Below are positions 19,098 through 25,968 of a stretch of 47,027 nt of DNA, piece after piece. How positions within the stretch are numbered: the first letter of the stretch is position 1; each line of letters opens with the position of its first letter. This DNA is from a bacterium (GTDB taxonomy: Bacteria > Zixibacteria > MSB-5A5 > WJJR01). Under the pieces are notes generated by a model. The model saw only the letters and a list, made by a program, of their open reading frames with translations, searched no databases and was not told the origin of the DNA. The position numbers were made by a program, and so were the translations under genes. The DNA is taken from contig JAKAKI010000011.1 in assembly GCA_021813505.1 (NCBI GenBank), positions 1 through 47,027 on the forward strand. The letters are read 5' to 3'.

Positions 19098-19203
19098 GGG
19101 AGGGCAAGGCTCCTGCCGAGCCACGTTCCCGCGCGGACACGATAGCGAACCTAAACAAATACTCCCGCGCGGGAAGAAGGCTCGGCAGGAGCCTCGCCCT
19201 CCC
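19098..19203. repeat. 25-bp palindromic dispersed repeat, copy 2 (long loop)
   Basis: Arms 19098-19122 and 19179-19203, one mismatch (CAAGG against CGAGG). The longer loop contains a second pair, TTCCCGCGCGG and CCGCGCGGGAA. Confidence 0.85.
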
Positions 19204-19305: not shown

Positions 19306-20646
19306 TTAGAGTTTGTACTTCTTTTCAACCTGGCCGATCACCTGATCGAGAATATCGAGGGCGACCTGGCACTGATGGCGAGTGATGACCAATGGCGGAA
19401 CCAGACGGATGCCGTTGGGACCGCAGGTCAGAAGCATCAGCCCTTTACGGAAGGTCTCCATCTCCACATCGTGGGAGATCTTCGGCGCCGGGGCCTTGGT
19501 CTTCTTGTCGAGGACAAACTCGATGCCGATCATCAGGCCGAGTCCGCGGACATCGCCCATGGACGGGTGGCGTTTCTGCATCTTCTTCAGTTCGGCCATG
19601 AGGAATTTGCCCTGCTTGGCCGCGTTGTCCATGAGACCGCCTTCGAGCAGATCCATGGTGGCATGCGCGGCCGCGCAGCCGATGGGAGTGCCACCGAAGG
19701 TGGTCGAATGCGCACCCGGAGGCCAGTCCATGATTTCGGCGGAGGCGATGCACGCACCCAGCGGTATGCCGGAGGCGATGGCCTTGGCGGTCGTGATGAT
19801 GTCGGGTTCAACCCCCCAGTGCTGGATGGCAAACCACTTGCCGGTCTTCCCCATTCCCGACTGGACTTCGTCCATAATCAGGTAGATGCCGTACTTTTTG
19901 GCCAGCGCCGCGAGAGCGGGGAAATAATCGGGTGGCGGTACGATGTATCCGCCTTCTCCCTGCACCGGTTCCACGATGATGGCCGCGACATCCTCCGCCG
20001 GAGCGACGCGGGTGAAGATCTGTTCCTCGATGAATTTGACGCATTGCAGTTCGCAGGACGGGTGCTTCAGGTTGAACGGGCAGCGGTAGCAGTAGGCGTA
20101 CGGCACATGCGTCACTTCGGGCAGCATCGGGGCGTAGCGCTCGCGCTGGGTCTTCTTGGAGCAGGTCAGCGAGAGGGCGCCCATGGTGCGTCCGTGGAAG
20201 GCGCCGATGAAGGCGATCATGCGCGGCTTGCGGGTTTTGTATCGCGCCAATTTCAGCGCGCACTCCACCGACTCAGTTCCCGAGTTGGTAAAAAACACCC
20301 GTTTGGGGCTTTTGCCCGGCGCGACGGCGCCGAGGCGCTGCGCGAGGCTGCCGATTTGCTCGTGGTAGAAGTCGGCGCTGGAGAAGTGCACCGCCTTCTG
20401 CGCCTGATGCACGATCGCATCGACGACCTTGGGGTGGCAATTGCCGGTCGAGCAAACGCCGATTCCCGAGTGGAAATCGAGAAACTGGTTGCCGTCCACG
20501 TCCCAAATCCAGGCGCCATCGGCGTGGTCGAGCACCACGGGATAGGCACGGGTGTACGACGGGGACACGAATTGCTCATCGAACTTGATGAGTTTATCAC
20601 TTTTCGGACCCGGCAGGCGGGTCTTGATGACAGGATGCTGGTTCAT
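19306..20646 (-). CDS. Class III PLP aminotransferase (4-aminobutyrate/ornithine type)
   Basis: 446 residues. Fold type I omega-aminotransferase with TNSGTESVECALKLAR (PLP phosphate loop), FHGRTMGALS, EPVQGEGGY, MDEVQSGMGKTGKWF and the PLP lysine in TTAKAIASGIPLGA. It carries a Cys cluster (CYRCPF, then two further Cys within 20 residues) that standard GabT lacks. This insertion resembles the acetylornithine-family enzymes of Thermococcales and relatives, some of which act on ornithine or as broad-range racemases, so I leave the substrate open. Good RBS (AGGAGG) before ATG 20646. A Pho-box-like site lies 288 nt upstream in the divergent region. Confidence 0.88.
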   Translation of the reverse strand: MNQHPVIKTRLPGPKSDKLIKFDEQFVSPSYTRAYPVVLDHADGAWIWDVDGNQFLDFHSGIGVCSTGNCHPKVVDAIVHQAQKAVHFSSADFYHEQIGSLAQRLGAVAPGKSPKRVFFTNSGTESVECALKLARYKTRKPRMIAFIGAFHGRTMGALSLTCSKKTQRERYAPMLPEVTHVPYAYCYRCPFNLKHPSCELQCVKFIEEQIFTRVAPAEDVAAIIVEPVQGEGGYIVPPPDYFPALAALAKKYGIYLIMDEVQSGMGKTGKWFAIQHWGVEPDIITTAKAIASGIPLGACIASAEIMDWPPGAHSTTFGGTPIGCAAAHATMDLLEGGLMDNAAKQGKFLMAELKKMQKRHPSMGDVRGLGLMIGIEFVLDKKTKAPAPKISHDVEMETFRKGLMLLTCGPNGIRLVPPLVITRHQCQVALDILDQVIGQVEKKYKL

Positions 20647-21017: not shown

Positions 21018-21782
21018 GTGATATTCTCGCGTGATTCGAAGGCGAAAGGCCGGACGAGAGAGACATTGAAGCGCGAACTGATCAATCATCCTTGGAACCT
21101 CACGCTCCCGCGCGCGGCCGCGTTGCAGAGTGAGTTGGCGTCGCATGTGCGGCTGACGCCGTTGAAGGAACCGTCAGTGATCGTCGCCGGGGCGGACATT
21201 GCCGAATCGGCCGGCCAGGTATTCGCCGCAGTCGTCGTTATGGACAGTTCCAGCGGCAAGGTGATCGAGATCAGCCGCAGCCATGCCTTTGCGAGGTTTA
21301 GTGCGATTGCCGGATATCTCGCATTCCGGCACGGACCGATTATTCTGAAAGCCATCCATCAGCTTGATCACACTCCCGAGCTGTTCTTCTTCGCCGGCCA
21401 TGGTGTCTGCCATCCGCGATTTTTGGGTCTGGCCGCGCATCTGGGATTGCGAATGGATCGGGCATCAATCGGATGCTCCTCCGAGCGTCTGGTCGGGCAT
21501 TATGATCTTCCCGGGCCGAAGCGAGGCGATCATACGGTCGTTCGGTTTTCACCGCAGGCACCGGGGGCGGTCCTGCGCACGCAGCCGGGGATCAATCCGC
21601 TGTTCGTTTCGCCGGGACACAAGATCGACCTGATGGGCGCGATCTCGGAGACATTGCGGCTGTCGACCAAGTTTCGTTTCCCGGAGCCATTGCGCCGCGC
21701 TCACATCGAGGCGGGCCGCTATATGCGCGAATTCCGGGATAATGCCAGAATCACGGAGCCGAAGAAGCAATCCCCTCGGTGA
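21018..21782 (+). CDS. nfi: Endonuclease V homologue with substituted metal ligands
   Basis: 254 residues. Clear endonuclease V (PF04493) backbone: VAGADIAES (first catalytic Asp kept), the AGYLAFR helix, GHGVCHPRFLGLAAHLGL, IGCSSERL, NPLFVSPGHKI and a family-like RLPEPTR-type end (RFPEPLRRAH). In the active enzymes the second acidic ligand follows FR (FRE) and the third precedes GHG (DGHG). Here they are His (FRH) and Ala (AGHG), and the family Lys in IGVAKKRL is Ser. Inosine-strand cleavage is therefore doubtful; DNA or RNA binding may persist. The GTG start has a weak RBS, so the N-terminus is uncertain. Confidence 0.85.
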   Translation: MIFSRDSKAKGRTRETLKRELINHPWNLTLPRAAALQSELASHVRLTPLKEPSVIVAGADIAESAGQVFAAVVVMDSSSGKVIEISRSHAFARFSAIAGYLAFRHGPIILKAIHQLDHTPELFFFAGHGVCHPRFLGLAAHLGLRMDRASIGCSSERLVGHYDLPGPKRGDHTVVRFSPQAPGAVLRTQPGINPLFVSPGHKIDLMGAISETLRLSTKFRFPEPLRRAHIEAGRYMREFRDNARITEPKKQSPR

Positions 21783-21885: not shown

Positions 21886-24800
21886 TCACTGATGCGCGTG
21901 CGGGATCGATTCTTGCCCTGCCAGCCGTTCGATGGCGCGCTGCAATTCCTCGATCTGGAATGGAATGCGCAGAATCAGATCGCTGGCGGCGTCGGCCGAT
22001 TCCGGTGGGGCTTCGTCGCCGGTTACGACAATTACGGGCAGAGTCGGCATAAATTCCTTCAAGGCACCGGCGAACTCCCAGCCATTGGCGTCGGGTGTGG
22101 CGGCAACAATCGCCAGGTCGGTCACCTGCGGGGTGATCATCTCCATCGAGTTGGGCACGTCGGCCGACTGGACGTGATGTCCGAGCGACTCGAGCATGCT
22201 CACGATCAAATCGTTCATGGCACTTTGGAAATTTACCAGAACGATTTCGTGGATTGGCGGGTGTTCCATGATCTCCGCATCCGGGGCGGCAGGTATCGGT
22301 GCTTCATGCGGTGTGCTGTCAAAGAGCAACTCGAGCCCCAGGCGGTCGCCATCGCGAATCAGCCATCGGCCGCCCACGTGCATCTCAGGGGCGGTGTGCG
22401 GGGCCGAGGCGCTGGCGTTACGATCGCTAACCTGCATGCCGGTCAGGTCCGAGTCATCAACGGCAGTCACATCGGCGGGGAGCGCGGCTCCGATCAATGA
22501 CGAGCGAATCAGGCGGAGCGTGGTACGGCCGTTGTCGCCGAGGGTCAGCACGCTGAACTCGCTTCCTTCCATCTCATTGTCACGGCACAGACGCCGTCCC
22601 CGGTCGAGCAGCGTCTTGAGCCAGGACGGCTCCACTTCGATTTTCGACCGTGCCGAAAGATCCAAGTGCAAAGCGTCCTCTGTCTGCGCCGCCGCCCAGC
22701 CCAGAATCACGCTGTTGAGGTCTTCCGGTGATTCGGGTGGGCCATCGGCTTGAGTTTGATTATCCGGTGCAACAAGGTCGGTCGATTCCTCGGTGAACGG
22801 AATCGGCACCAGGCTCATGCCGGAACCGGCTGCCGCCAGAAACGCGACCCATTGGCCGGCGAGAGCAGTGTGCTCGTCTTCGAGTTGAGTCGCGCCGAAT
22901 CCAAAGGCCGTCAGCCATCCGGTGGCACGCGCGCCGTTGGCGCCTGAACCATCATGCGCCAGCTGCCAGGGCCAACAGACGGCCCAGGATGGTTCTCCGG
23001 CTTCGCCCCAGTGCGCACGCCAGTTGGCGTAGTGCTCTTCCTCGTGATTGCGGCGGATGTTCTCCCATTGCTGCTGGAGATCGAGCCGGGTGACACCCTC
23101 GGCAGGGATGGTCCGGAATTCAAAGGACCATGGCTCGACGCCCAGGTCCTGGTGAATCTTGTGATCGCGTCCCAACCAGGCGACAATTCGGGCGAGCCCC
23201 TCGGCGTTGCGCTGCCAGAGATAGAGTTCCACGGGACCCGGGAGTTCATCGGCCATGGCCCCAAAAAGCAATGCGAGGCGCTTGTCATCGGCGGGCGCAC
23301 CGAGAACCGCCTGAAGCTGGCTTAAGAGGTGGTCACGGCGTGTCTTGACGCCGTTGATCTGACGGCGGGCATTCAAATGGTGCTCCACCAGTTCCTGCCG
23401 CGCGCGTTCATCATGTTCGGCGGCTTCGATGATCGTGTTCTGCAATTCGGACTGAAGCAACTCGATGCGTTCGCTGGTCCGGTGGAGCTCCTGCTCCAAT
23501 TGCTGGAGCTTTTCGTCCGCGCTCTCCTGCTGTGCAGACTGAATGCTGGTGTGATGGGCGTCGAGTTCCTGCAACGCCCGGCGTTCTGTCTGGATTCGCT
23601 GGAGGAATTCGCGCTCACGTTCATCGAACATCAGACGGGTTGAATGGAGTTCCTGTTCGAGTGTGAGCTTTAATTCACGGACAGCGGCCAGTTGCGCGTT
23701 CAATTCGCCGATCGCCTTCGTAGCCGCCTGCTGTTGTGATTCCAGCGATTCCTGATAATGCGTTTGTGCTTCGGTGGCGGCCTGGCGGGCGGCGACCAGA
23801 TGAGCCGACAGTTGCTTTTCGCGCTCCTCGAGCAATTGCCGCGTGGAGGTCAATTCCTGTTCGACGGCGAGGCGTTCTTGCACCGCATTGCGCCGCTCGC
23901 CTTCAAGTTGGCCTTTGATGGCGTCCAATTCGGTCTGGCGCGCGGTCCGTTCGCTGTCGAGTTCCCGTTCGTGGAGAAGGTGCGCGGCGGCGAGTTCGGT
24001 TTCGCGCTCGATCCGTTCGGCAGTGAGGGCCGATTCGAGCTCCGCCACACTGTTGCTGGCCACCTGGAGGGCGTCTCGTTCCTTGGCGACTTTCTGCTGT
24101 TCGGCCAGAAGCATCGATTGCAGGTCGTCAATCCGCTGCATGAGAACCGCCTGGGTTTCCTGATTGGCGGCGGTGAGCTGTTCTTCGCGTTTGCGGGCAA
24201 TGGCGCGTTCGGCCTGCCGGTCCTGATTGATTTGATCGAGCCGCCGTCCCCATTCTGCGCGTTCGGTCTCGAAACGCGCAAGCGTCGCTTCGTGATCGCG
24301 GCGGGCATCCTCCCAGCGCTGCTGCATCTGGGCGGTGCGTTCCTGCTCGGCCGCGGCGGCCGCGGTGGCCTTGAGCTCGTAGCCGGCTTTTGTCTGATCA
24401 ATCGCATCGCGCGCTTGTGTCTGGATCGTCTGTGCCTGGGCGGCGAAATTGATTTCCAACGCGTGGCGCTCTTCGAGCCACTCGCGTTTGGCCTGGTTAT
24501 GTGTCTGCACATCGGCTTTGTGACGCTTTTGGAGTTCCTGGCGCTGGGCCTCCCATTCCTCGCGCGCCGTTGCCAGTTCCGCGGCAGCTTTTTCCTGCGC
24601 GGCGGCCAATTCTGACTGGGCGTTCGCCCGGAGCGCGGCCAGTTCCGCCTCGGCTTTCGTCTGCAGCGCGGCCATGCGCGCTTCGTGATCCTGATGGATC
24701 GACTGCTTCTCCTCTTCCCAAGAGACTCTCAACTCCTGGACGCGTTTCTCGTGGGCTTCGCGCTGCCGCTGCGCATCCTGGCGGTCGCGTTCCCATTCGG

Positions 24801-25671
24801 CGTGCGTGCTATCCAGTTGCTGGCGGGCGGCGTCGAGCTGGCGCGTGATGCGCGCCTCGGCGATGACGGCTGCGATATAGTCGGAGGCAGCGTAGAGGCG
24901 GCGGGCGCGGTCATCGTCGAAATGGGACGGAGAACGGTCGGCGAGGATGATCACGCCGAGAATCTGGCGGCCGGGGGTTCCGATGGTGCCGGTGGCCAAC
25001 GGCAGTCCGAGAACCGACTGGTATCCCTCCGGCTCCCACTCGGGGAAGAAGGCGCGGATTTCATCTGTGTTGCGGAAGAGACGGGCTTTGTGGGTTACCG
25101 CCAGCCGGTCAAAACCGGTCCCGCTGCCGCGAACGGATTCTGTTTGCTGCCTCAGTTTCTCCGACATGCCGCCCCAGCCAGTGAGAACCCATTCAGAACG
25201 GCCGGGATTGAAGAGCCACACGCCACCGCATTCCGCGCCGGCAGCGCGCACGATTTCTTTCAGCGAGAAATCGAGGATTTCGAGAAAGGCGTATGGCTGC
25301 GCGCTGATGTCGCGCAGACTATCGAACAAATCGAATCCGGCGCGCACATCATTGAGACGCTCGCGCTCCTCGGACAACTCACGCAGCCGCTCGATGGCGC
25401 CGGCGAGAACCAGCCCGATGCCGGCGGCGGCGGAGAGAGCAGACGTGACCTGCCACCAAGTCAGCCGTGTCGCCGATTCGACACCCGCTCCGGAAAGCCA
25501 CGGCCAGATGCCGGTGAGAACGGCGGAGAATAAGAAGAGTACCAATCCCGCGTAGACCCGTCGCCAGCCCATGAAGCCCAATGCCCAGTACCGTTCATGC
25601 GCACGAAATGCCGTAAGCAAAAGAGCAATGCCCGTGACCAGCGGTATCAAACCCAGTAAGATCGATTCCAT
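21886..25671 (-). CDS. Large membrane / GAF / long coiled-coil protein with degenerate receiver domain
   Basis: 1261 residues from ATG 25671. Three transmembrane helices (about 4-22, 38-57 and 75-92). A GAF-like domain covers about 115-280 (GGVWLFNPGRSEWVLTGWGG, then SVLGLPLATG and ILGVIILAD). About 530 residues of uninterrupted coiled coil follow (about 285-820, very rich in E, Q, R and A). A mixed region (about 830-1130) comes next, and then a CheY-like fold (about 1141-1252). In that last domain the paired acidic residues are Asn-Phe (LVNFQ), the phosphoacceptor Asp is Ala (about 1190) and the Lys of K-P-F is Arg (LRIPF). It is therefore a phosphorylation-independent pseudo-receiver. No kinase or output enzyme is attached; a scaffold or polar-organising role is inferred. 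Monocistronic. Confidence 0.8.
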   Translation of the reverse strand: MESILLGLIPLVTGIALLLTAFRAHERYWALGFMGWRRVYAGLVLFLFSAVLTGIWPWLSGAGVESATRLTWWQVTSALSAAAGIGLVLAGAIERLRELSEERERLNDVRAGFDLFDSLRDISAQPYAFLEILDFSLKEIVRAAGAECGGVWLFNPGRSEWVLTGWGGMSEKLRQQTESVRGSGTGFDRLAVTHKARLFRNTDEIRAFFPEWEPEGYQSVLGLPLATGTIGTPGRQILGVIILADRSPSHFDDDRARRLYAASDYIAAVIAEARITRQLDAARQQLDSTHAEWERDRQDAQRQREAHEKRVQELRVSWEEEKQSIHQDHEARMAALQTKAEAELAALRANAQSELAAAQEKAAAELATAREEWEAQRQELQKRHKADVQTHNQAKREWLEERHALEINFAAQAQTIQTQARDAIDQTKAGYELKATAAAAAEQERTAQMQQRWEDARRDHEATLARFETERAEWGRRLDQINQDRQAERAIARKREEQLTAANQETQAVLMQRIDDLQSMLLAEQQKVAKERDALQVASNSVAELESALTAERIERETELAAAHLLHERELDSERTARQTELDAIKGQLEGERRNAVQERLAVEQELTSTRQLLEEREKQLSAHLVAARQAATEAQTHYQESLESQQQAATKAIGELNAQLAAVRELKLTLEQELHSTRLMFDEREREFLQRIQTERRALQELDAHHTSIQSAQQESADEKLQQLEQELHRTSERIELLQSELQNTIIEAAEHDERARQELVEHHLNARRQINGVKTRRDHLLSQLQAVLGAPADDKRLALLFGAMADELPGPVELYLWQRNAEGLARIVAWLGRDHKIHQDLGVEPWSFEFRTIPAEGVTRLDLQQQWENIRRNHEEEHYANWRAHWGEAGEPSWAVCWPWQLAHDGSGANGARATGWLTAFGFGATQLEDEHTALAGQWVAFLAAAGSGMSLVPIPFTEESTDLVAPDNQTQADGPPESPEDLNSVILGWAAAQTEDALHLDLSARSKIEVEPSWLKTLLDRGRRLCRDNEMEGSEFSVLTLGDNGRTTLRLIRSSLIGAALPADVTAVDDSDLTGMQVSDRNASASAPHTAPEMHVGGRWLIRDGDRLGLELLFDSTPHEAPIPAAPDAEIMEHPPIHEIVLVNFQSAMNDLIVSMLESLGHHVQSADVPNSMEMITPQVTDLAIVAATPDANGWEFAGALKEFMPTLPVIVVTGDEAPPESADAASDLILRIPFQIEELQRAIERLAGQESIPHAHQ

Positions 25672-25968
25672 TATTTTCTCGCTCCCCTCAGTACCATTGG
25701 CGGGTAACAGCCCCGTAAATTCCAACAACGGAACCCGTAGTAAGACAACGGGTCACGCGTGTCAAGAGAAAACGCGTCCGGGTCCGTGCGGCGGTTATAT
25801 AGTCGCCGAGGTTTAAGGCTTTGTCAGGTAATTAGTTCGCATCGCTCCCCCTGGAATCATTTTCGAATCTTTATGGCGGTATCTCCGTCTTTATATTATA
25901 ACCATGGCAGCGACATTGGACCACCGTCCGACGGGCGCAAGTGCTGATTTCTGAATGAGGTAAAACAA

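Follow-up and report, generated by a model that had tools for sequence, protein, structure and literature searches.

Textbook accounts rank endonuclease V (EndoV) among the best-conserved nucleases of DNA repair. A homolog whose catalytic residues have been replaced raises the question of whether it is a decaying gene, an altered nuclease, or a protein kept for something other than cutting. Such a homolog lies in the stretch of DNA analyzed here (the window), one contig of 47,027 bases from a 3.89-Mb genome (G000; 97% complete).

An EndoV homolog lacking two metal ligands and the active-site lysine

The open reading frame spans positions 21018 to 21782 of the forward strand, is open throughout, and would encode 254 amino acids if read from GTG. 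In a sequence from the same genus (G001), the open frame has just 245 codons, and the two sequences have a start codon in common at the place of window TTG 21066. As the G001 frame opens only slightly upstream and has a start codon there, TTG 21066 is probably the start rather than GTG 21018, giving a coding sequence at 21066..21782 (+) of 238 amino acids. Residues were counted from this TTG, a numbering that coincides with that of Thermotoga maritima EndoV mid-protein. The gene gave the only PF04493 match in G000 and is the genome's sole EndoV, so that a second, active copy elsewhere in the genome was rejected.

The match to PF04493 scored 171.2 bits (cut-off, 23.4) across profile positions 2 to 197 of 198, although both NCBIfam EndoV equivalog cut-offs were missed (NF041102, 189 versus 300; NF008629, 160 versus 230). 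No other profile was reported, and PF01949 (DUF99) gave no match at an E value of 0.001. AlphaFold2 (37 sequences) returned a model with a mean pLDDT of 95.7, to which the nearest PDB chains were those of T. maritima EndoV (Z, 34 to 35; rmsd, 1.3 to 1.4), 2w35 giving a Z of 35.2 and an rmsd of 1.4 over 218 residues. Among these nearest chains are the engineered T. maritima mutants D110N (6ozf; Z, 35.4; rmsd, 1.3) and E89Q (6ozg), which according to their PDB titles were crystallized with inosine DNA. Judged from this model, the EndoV fold is retained, as the first-pass annotation had read from sequence motifs.

In EndoV, D43, E89, and D110 are reported to hold the metal and K139 and H214 the 5′ phosphate, while recognition of hypoxanthine relies on backbone contacts in a pocket formed by G83, L85, G111, G113, G121, and L142 (PMC4650699). 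Using 2w35 as the reference for residue positions, the first metal ligand of the window protein is present as Asp44 in a GAD motif (T. maritima D43; 21195..21197, +), whereas E89 is replaced by His89 (FRH; 21330..21332, +) and D110 by Ala110 (AGHG; 21393..21395, +). The Asp-Glu-Asp triad is therefore incomplete, reading D/H/A. Of the 5′-phosphate pair, K139 has become Ser139 (IGCSSERL; 21480..21482, +), and H214 is retained as His213 (21702..21704, +). The earlier reading that two of three acidic ligands and the lysine are gone thus agrees with the structural reference. The PYIP wedge is absent, with S-A-I-A in its place, while all six hypoxanthine pocket residues are present. No acidic replacement was found adjoining position 89 or 110. 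In G001, which is 94% identical, the triad reads D/H/S and the lysine is replaced by alanine, making an assembly error unlikely; with the same losses recurring across independent metagenome-assembled genomes, an assembly or strain error was rejected.

Site loss and selection within the family

The window genome belongs to a GTDB-type family (f1) in which six members could be scored (G000 to G005), a seventh (G006) being a C-terminal fragment. The retained first aspartate is Asp in 6/6. Position 89, Glu in 19/19 canonical proteins, is His in G000 and G001, Leu in G003 and G005, Asp in G004, and Glu in G002 (1/6). Position 110, Asp in 19/19 canonical proteins, is Ala in G000 and G003, Ser in G001, Asn in G005, Val in G004, and His in G002 (Asp in 0/6). 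Lys139 is likewise kept in 0/6 and in 19/19 canonical proteins. The first-pass annotation had held that homologs of the lineage with the usual acidic residues would mean decay in this strain only; none of the six has D110, and the sole member with E89 carries His at 110. It had also asked whether His and Ala are fixed, which they are not, and the idea of a new His/Ala metal site was rejected because both positions vary in f1; no new site of this kind was selected.

Other parts of the protein are held far more firmly. R88, G90, P91, G113, H116, G121, A123, and G127 are each present in 6/6 and H214 in 7/7. Across the hypoxanthine pocket, G83, G113, and G121 are kept in 6/6 and G111 and L142 in 5/6, with L85 in 3/6 (Arg or Ser in the other three); Tyr80 of the wedge is retained in just 2/6. 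With L85 and Tyr80 so often changed, recognition of inosine may be gone in f1. When the near-copy G001 and the fragment G006 were set aside, five divergent f1 lineages shared 80 identical columns. The 19 canonical proteins of the phylum have 28 invariant columns, of which 19 remain invariant across these five lineages and only 89, 110, 139, and 176 reach four states. Several residues are invariant in f1 and absent from all canonical proteins: R160, SPQAP (162 to 166), C115, R211, E215, and M220. Among them, the R-F-SPQAP loop (residues 160 to 166; 21543..21563, +) is invariant in 6/6 (F or Y at 161) and found in 0/19 canonical proteins, and Cys115 next to the conserved His116 (21408..21413, +) is likewise found in 0/19. 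These f1-only invariants argue for a new constraint. Constraint in f1 has thus shifted off the metal site and has settled partly elsewhere in the protein. The f1 domains are basic (pI, 9.3 to 9.9).

The reading frame is intact in the six f1 members that have a full-length gene. Between G000 and G001, dN/dS was 0.09 (234 codons; dS, 0.31), compared with 0.017 for the neighboring aminotransferase gene and 0.067 to 0.120 for the neighboring GAF protein gene. More distant f1 pairs gave 0.21 and 0.34, with dS close to saturation. The comparison of dN and dS suggested in the first-pass annotation therefore indicates purifying selection, and together with the family-wide site loss it points to a conserved protein and not to strain-specific decay. 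Of its proposal of a conserved inactive EndoV, the conserved gene stands and the canonical two-metal site is gone in the whole of f1, but the particular residues His89 and Ala110 are unfixed.

The locus is shared with canonical EndoV

Upstream and divergent in the window lies a class-III aminotransferase gene (19306..20646, −; PF00202, 408 bits), found in the same order in loci of f1 and of the sister family f2. Downstream and convergent is a gene for a GAF/coiled-coil/receiver-like protein (21886..25728, −; PF13185), whose cluster, c5, lies by EndoV in both families. Overall, the f1 and f2 loci carry clusters c23, c19, c13, and c20 on one side and c5 on the other, some being missing in single genomes. 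Both f2 proteins in this arrangement have the normal D-E-D triad and Lys. As the neighborhood is common to f1 and canonical f2, the f1 gene is the positional ortholog of a canonical EndoV and not a stray paralog.

Loss of D110 across the phylum

The phylum was sampled with 132 Zixibacteria-like genomes, all of one class. PF04493 was present in 83 of them, never as two genes in one genome (an extra match in G113 is a fragment of the same broken gene). Position 110 could be scored in 81 genes: 19 have Asp there and 62 do not, the losses falling into three groups with differing residual sites. A natural Asn110 occurs in G005, G014, G034, and G097.

Besides f1, the largest group comprises families f8, f17, f18, and f19 (f8/17/18/19), in which D110 is lost in 47/47, mostly to His or Ala. 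E89 and R88 are kept in 47/47, H214 in 46/47, and Tyr80 in 41/47. In this group (L052 and other loci), K139 is replaced by Arg in 48/48 genes, together with the loss of D110. EndoV heads a run of genes for an M20 peptidase, a propeller protein, and proteins that we take, from reading their sequences, to be YbbR-like and TsaD-like. An M20 gene also lies 3′ of canonical EndoV in f6 and f12 and so says little about a new role.

Families f9, f14, and f16 (f9/14/16) have gone further: in 9/9, D43 is Gly, E89 variable, R88 Ser or Gly, and D110 Pro; K139 and H116 are retained in 9/9, and H214 is lost in 5/9. At these loci (L088 to L095), the EndoV gene without all three ligands sits after a conserved radical-SAM gene in 9/9 genomes. 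Further upstream are DUF488 (6/9) and archaemetzincin-like M54 (6/9) genes, some contigs ending early.

Close pairs within f8/17/18/19 and f9/14/16 gave dN/dS values of ∼0.06 to 0.20 (NG86; finite dS in 8/9 pairs), beside 0.04 to 0.13 for canonical pairs in the phylum, and these too are therefore maintained genes. EndoV frames disrupted by an internal stop or a frameshift were observed in G099 (L066; internal stop) and G113 (L078), so D110-less copies can also decay.

For comparison, one control phylum was sampled via a Zymogenus genome (59 genomes). PF04493 matches were found in 28, of which 27 were aligned and 26 were scorable at D110; Asp was present at 110 in 24/26 and Glu at 89 in 26/26. 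At position 110, L120 has Glu, paired with Arg139, and L122 has Asn, paired with Leu139; occasional losses of D110 therefore arise outside the phylum too.

Number of losses

Three changes at D110 were obtained on a quick tree of 82 rows, from which the fragmentary G006, G113, and G099 had been dropped. In a quick 81-row tree with the long row G034 left out, a single origin of the loss was not rejected (p = 0.55), nor was a union of f1 with f9/14/16 (p = 0.81) or of f1 with f2 (p = 0.72). A more careful 52-row tree was rooted on an outgroup, with catalytic columns masked and control-phylum rows included; it held 12 of 48 f8/17/18/19 rows and 8 of 27 control rows, three near-copies and G006 having been dropped. 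This tree showed three D110 losses in the phylum and four changes overall, the fourth being the Glu of control L120. It placed f8/17/18/19 beside canonical f5, f6, and f12 (support, 98/92); f1 grouped with canonical f2 and one row of the control phylum (90/91), and f9/14/16 joined two rows of that phylum (89/84). Forcing one common origin cost 19.9 log-likelihood units, short of formal rejection (p = 0.088). Among unions of two groups, that of f1 with f8/17/18/19 was also not rejected (p = 0.098), whereas f1 with f9/14/16 (p = 0.030) and f8/17/18/19 with f9/14/16 (p = 0.044) were. Three separate losses in the phylum are favored, though not proven, because of the synteny with canonical genes (f1 with f2; f8/17/18/19 with f6 and f12 via the M20 gene), the differing residual sites, and the rooted tree.

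A probable pseudonuclease and its alternatives

Catalytic residues are lost across the f1 clade, and fold and purifying selection are retained, the combination expected of a pseudonuclease. That the window protein is an EndoV ortholog turned into a non-cutting binder of nucleic acid is, on the sequence comparisons, probable, if only just. Without D110, E89, and K139, the two-metal cut next to inosine would be impossible. The old cleft would still hold nucleic acid, given the retained R88, H116, G113, G121, H214, and basic charge, and the protein would bind or read unusual nucleic-acid structures without cutting them.

The binder reading draws on the retained pocket and H214, on the loss of ligands, K139, and wedge, and on precedents from three EndoV proteins. 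As reported, T. maritima D43A, termed inactive, still scans DNA, with an interrogation mode that needs the wedge (PMC6300609); mouse EndoV D52A no longer cleaves, and its binding of inosine RNA is stronger (PMC4842958); and the binding of branched DNA by human EndoV does not depend on the wedge Tyr (PMC3489907). Since most f1 members are without the wedge residue Tyr80, inosine itself would be a less likely f1 ligand than nucleic acid that is branched or single stranded. The f8/17/18/19 proteins, with wedge and pocket largely retained, could possibly still be inosine readers. No f1 neighbor hinting at a nucleic-acid task was found, which weighs against the binder reading.

If the protein does not nick, hypoxanthine repair could pass to the AAG glycosylase that this genome also encodes. 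AAG is a hypoxanthine glycosylase; its gene is present in 113 of the 132 phylum genomes, including G000, and loss of nicking therefore need not leave hypoxanthine unrepaired. It is absent from 7 of 19 genomes with canonical EndoV versus 5 of 64 whose EndoV lacks D110 or is a fragment (Fisher p = 0.0045, with kinship ignored; three genomes in each set of AAG-lacking genomes are <90% complete). The association of AAG with EndoV site loss is only suggestive.

A reading that we consider unlikely, but the most serious of the alternatives, is that the protein is still a nuclease without the D-E-D triad, working with one metal on Asp44 or metal free through the His of the C-terminal helix as in Endo_dU, and probably on another lesion. 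The first Asp (6/6) and last His (7/7) kept in f1 would suit such an enzyme, a pattern that on its own is no demonstration of activity, and the E89 (47/47) and H214 (46/47) kept in f8/17/18/19 are not expected from pure decay. Endo_dU is reported to be metal independent with an incomplete DEDD site of which the last residue is needed, D10A alone being without effect and the double D10A-H166A change having an effect (PMC11585767). As Endo_dU cuts DNA metal free with an incomplete tetrad, incompleteness is no proof of inactivity. Human EndoV was first reported to be non-cutting (PMC3489907) and later described as an RNase (PMC3741642). However, E89, D110, and K139 drift freely in f1 with no new site settled, f9/14/16 lost D43, E89, R88, and D110 in 9/9 and H214 in 5/9, and the Endo_dU profile (PF01949) went unmatched.

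Reuse of the fold as a protein-protein partner, with nucleic-acid binding gone or incidental, appears improbable. The new invariant surface (R160-SPQAP, RRAHIEAG, and MR) would then be a docking site, and the clustering of f1-only invariants in the 160-to-166 loop and C-terminal helix, together with variable wedge residues, would fit. Against docking stand the fixed cleft residues (R88, H116, G113, G121, and H214) and the basic domain, and f1 has no conserved neighbor besides those common to canonical f2.

That the protein is an ordinary EndoV tolerating its substitutions and still repairing inosine is very improbable: the Asn and the Glu at 110 in the control phylum indicate that the position is not absolutely fixed, but here two ligands and K139 are lost and the protein falls below both NCBIfam equivalog cut-offs. 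Neutral decay of an unneeded gene is the least credible reading, for although G099 and G113 carry decaying copies elsewhere in the phylum, a dN/dS of 0.09, intact frames in six f1 members, and 80 identical columns in five f1 lineages speak against it.

Extended from the window protein to the phylum, the pseudonuclease reading would have EndoV become non-cutting at least three times, the converted copies outnumbering the enzyme (62/81). A second, cleavage-independent role, in which EndoV binds nucleic acid that is deaminated or branched, comparable to the engineered D110N and E89Q complexes, would then be ancestral and have outlived the nuclease. This extension is offered tentatively, as plausible but somewhat short of probable.

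Relation to known systems

Bacterial EndoV (Nfi; T. maritima 2w35 and Escherichia coli 4xpu; PF04493) resembles the window protein in sequence family and fold and shares D43, R88, H116, H214, and the pocket glycines 83, 111, 113, and 121, and canonical f2 EndoV occupies the same locus. It differs in that E89, D110, and K139 are replaced in the window protein and that most f1 members lack the wedge Tyr80. The T. maritima D110N and E89Q structures carry single changes at two of the positions also altered in the window protein. However, these are laboratory mutants, whereas the losses described here arose in nature and extend through entire families. Endo_dU (DUF99; 2qh9) likewise has an incomplete tetrad with a fourth-position His and a related fold (Z, 14.7), but belongs to a separate sequence family (10% identity; PF01949 unmatched by the window protein). 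Fungal Ssd1/Dis3L2, as described in PMC8097288, is a nuclease family with repeated active-site loss and a persisting RNA-binding role; it is unrelated and eukaryotic, and binding is reported there, whereas for the window protein it is a prediction. Incomplete active sites are also reported to occur across the RNase H-like superfamily (PMC3985635).

Within the open-licence literature, no report of a naturally inactive EndoV was found, nor, for Zixibacteria and DNA repair, anything on EndoV. Repeated pseudonuclease evolution is itself already known from Dis3L2/Ssd1; what is possibly new here is the family-wide, perhaps threefold, conversion of EndoV. With most phylum copies lacking a metal ligand, under purifying selection, and without an active paralog, the question of a nuclease-independent EndoV function would become directly testable. 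The D110-less proteins are natural candidates for binding-only readers of inosine or branched DNA; should they still cut, they would show an RNase H-like nuclease working without the metal triad. The coupled change of K139 to Arg with D110 loss in f8/17/18/19 is of biochemical interest.

A dispersed repeat near the locus

Between the dehydrogenase and aminotransferase genes of the window, positions 19098 to 19203 hold an imperfect inverted repeat with 39-base arms that are 90% complementary and 28 bases apart. Its core, GGCTCCTGCCGAGCC, searched genome-wide with ≤1 mismatch, occurred 141 times in forward and 140 times in reverse orientation, versus 1 and 1 for a reversed control. The copies often form closely spaced opposite pairs, resembling a dispersed REP/MITE-like hairpin.
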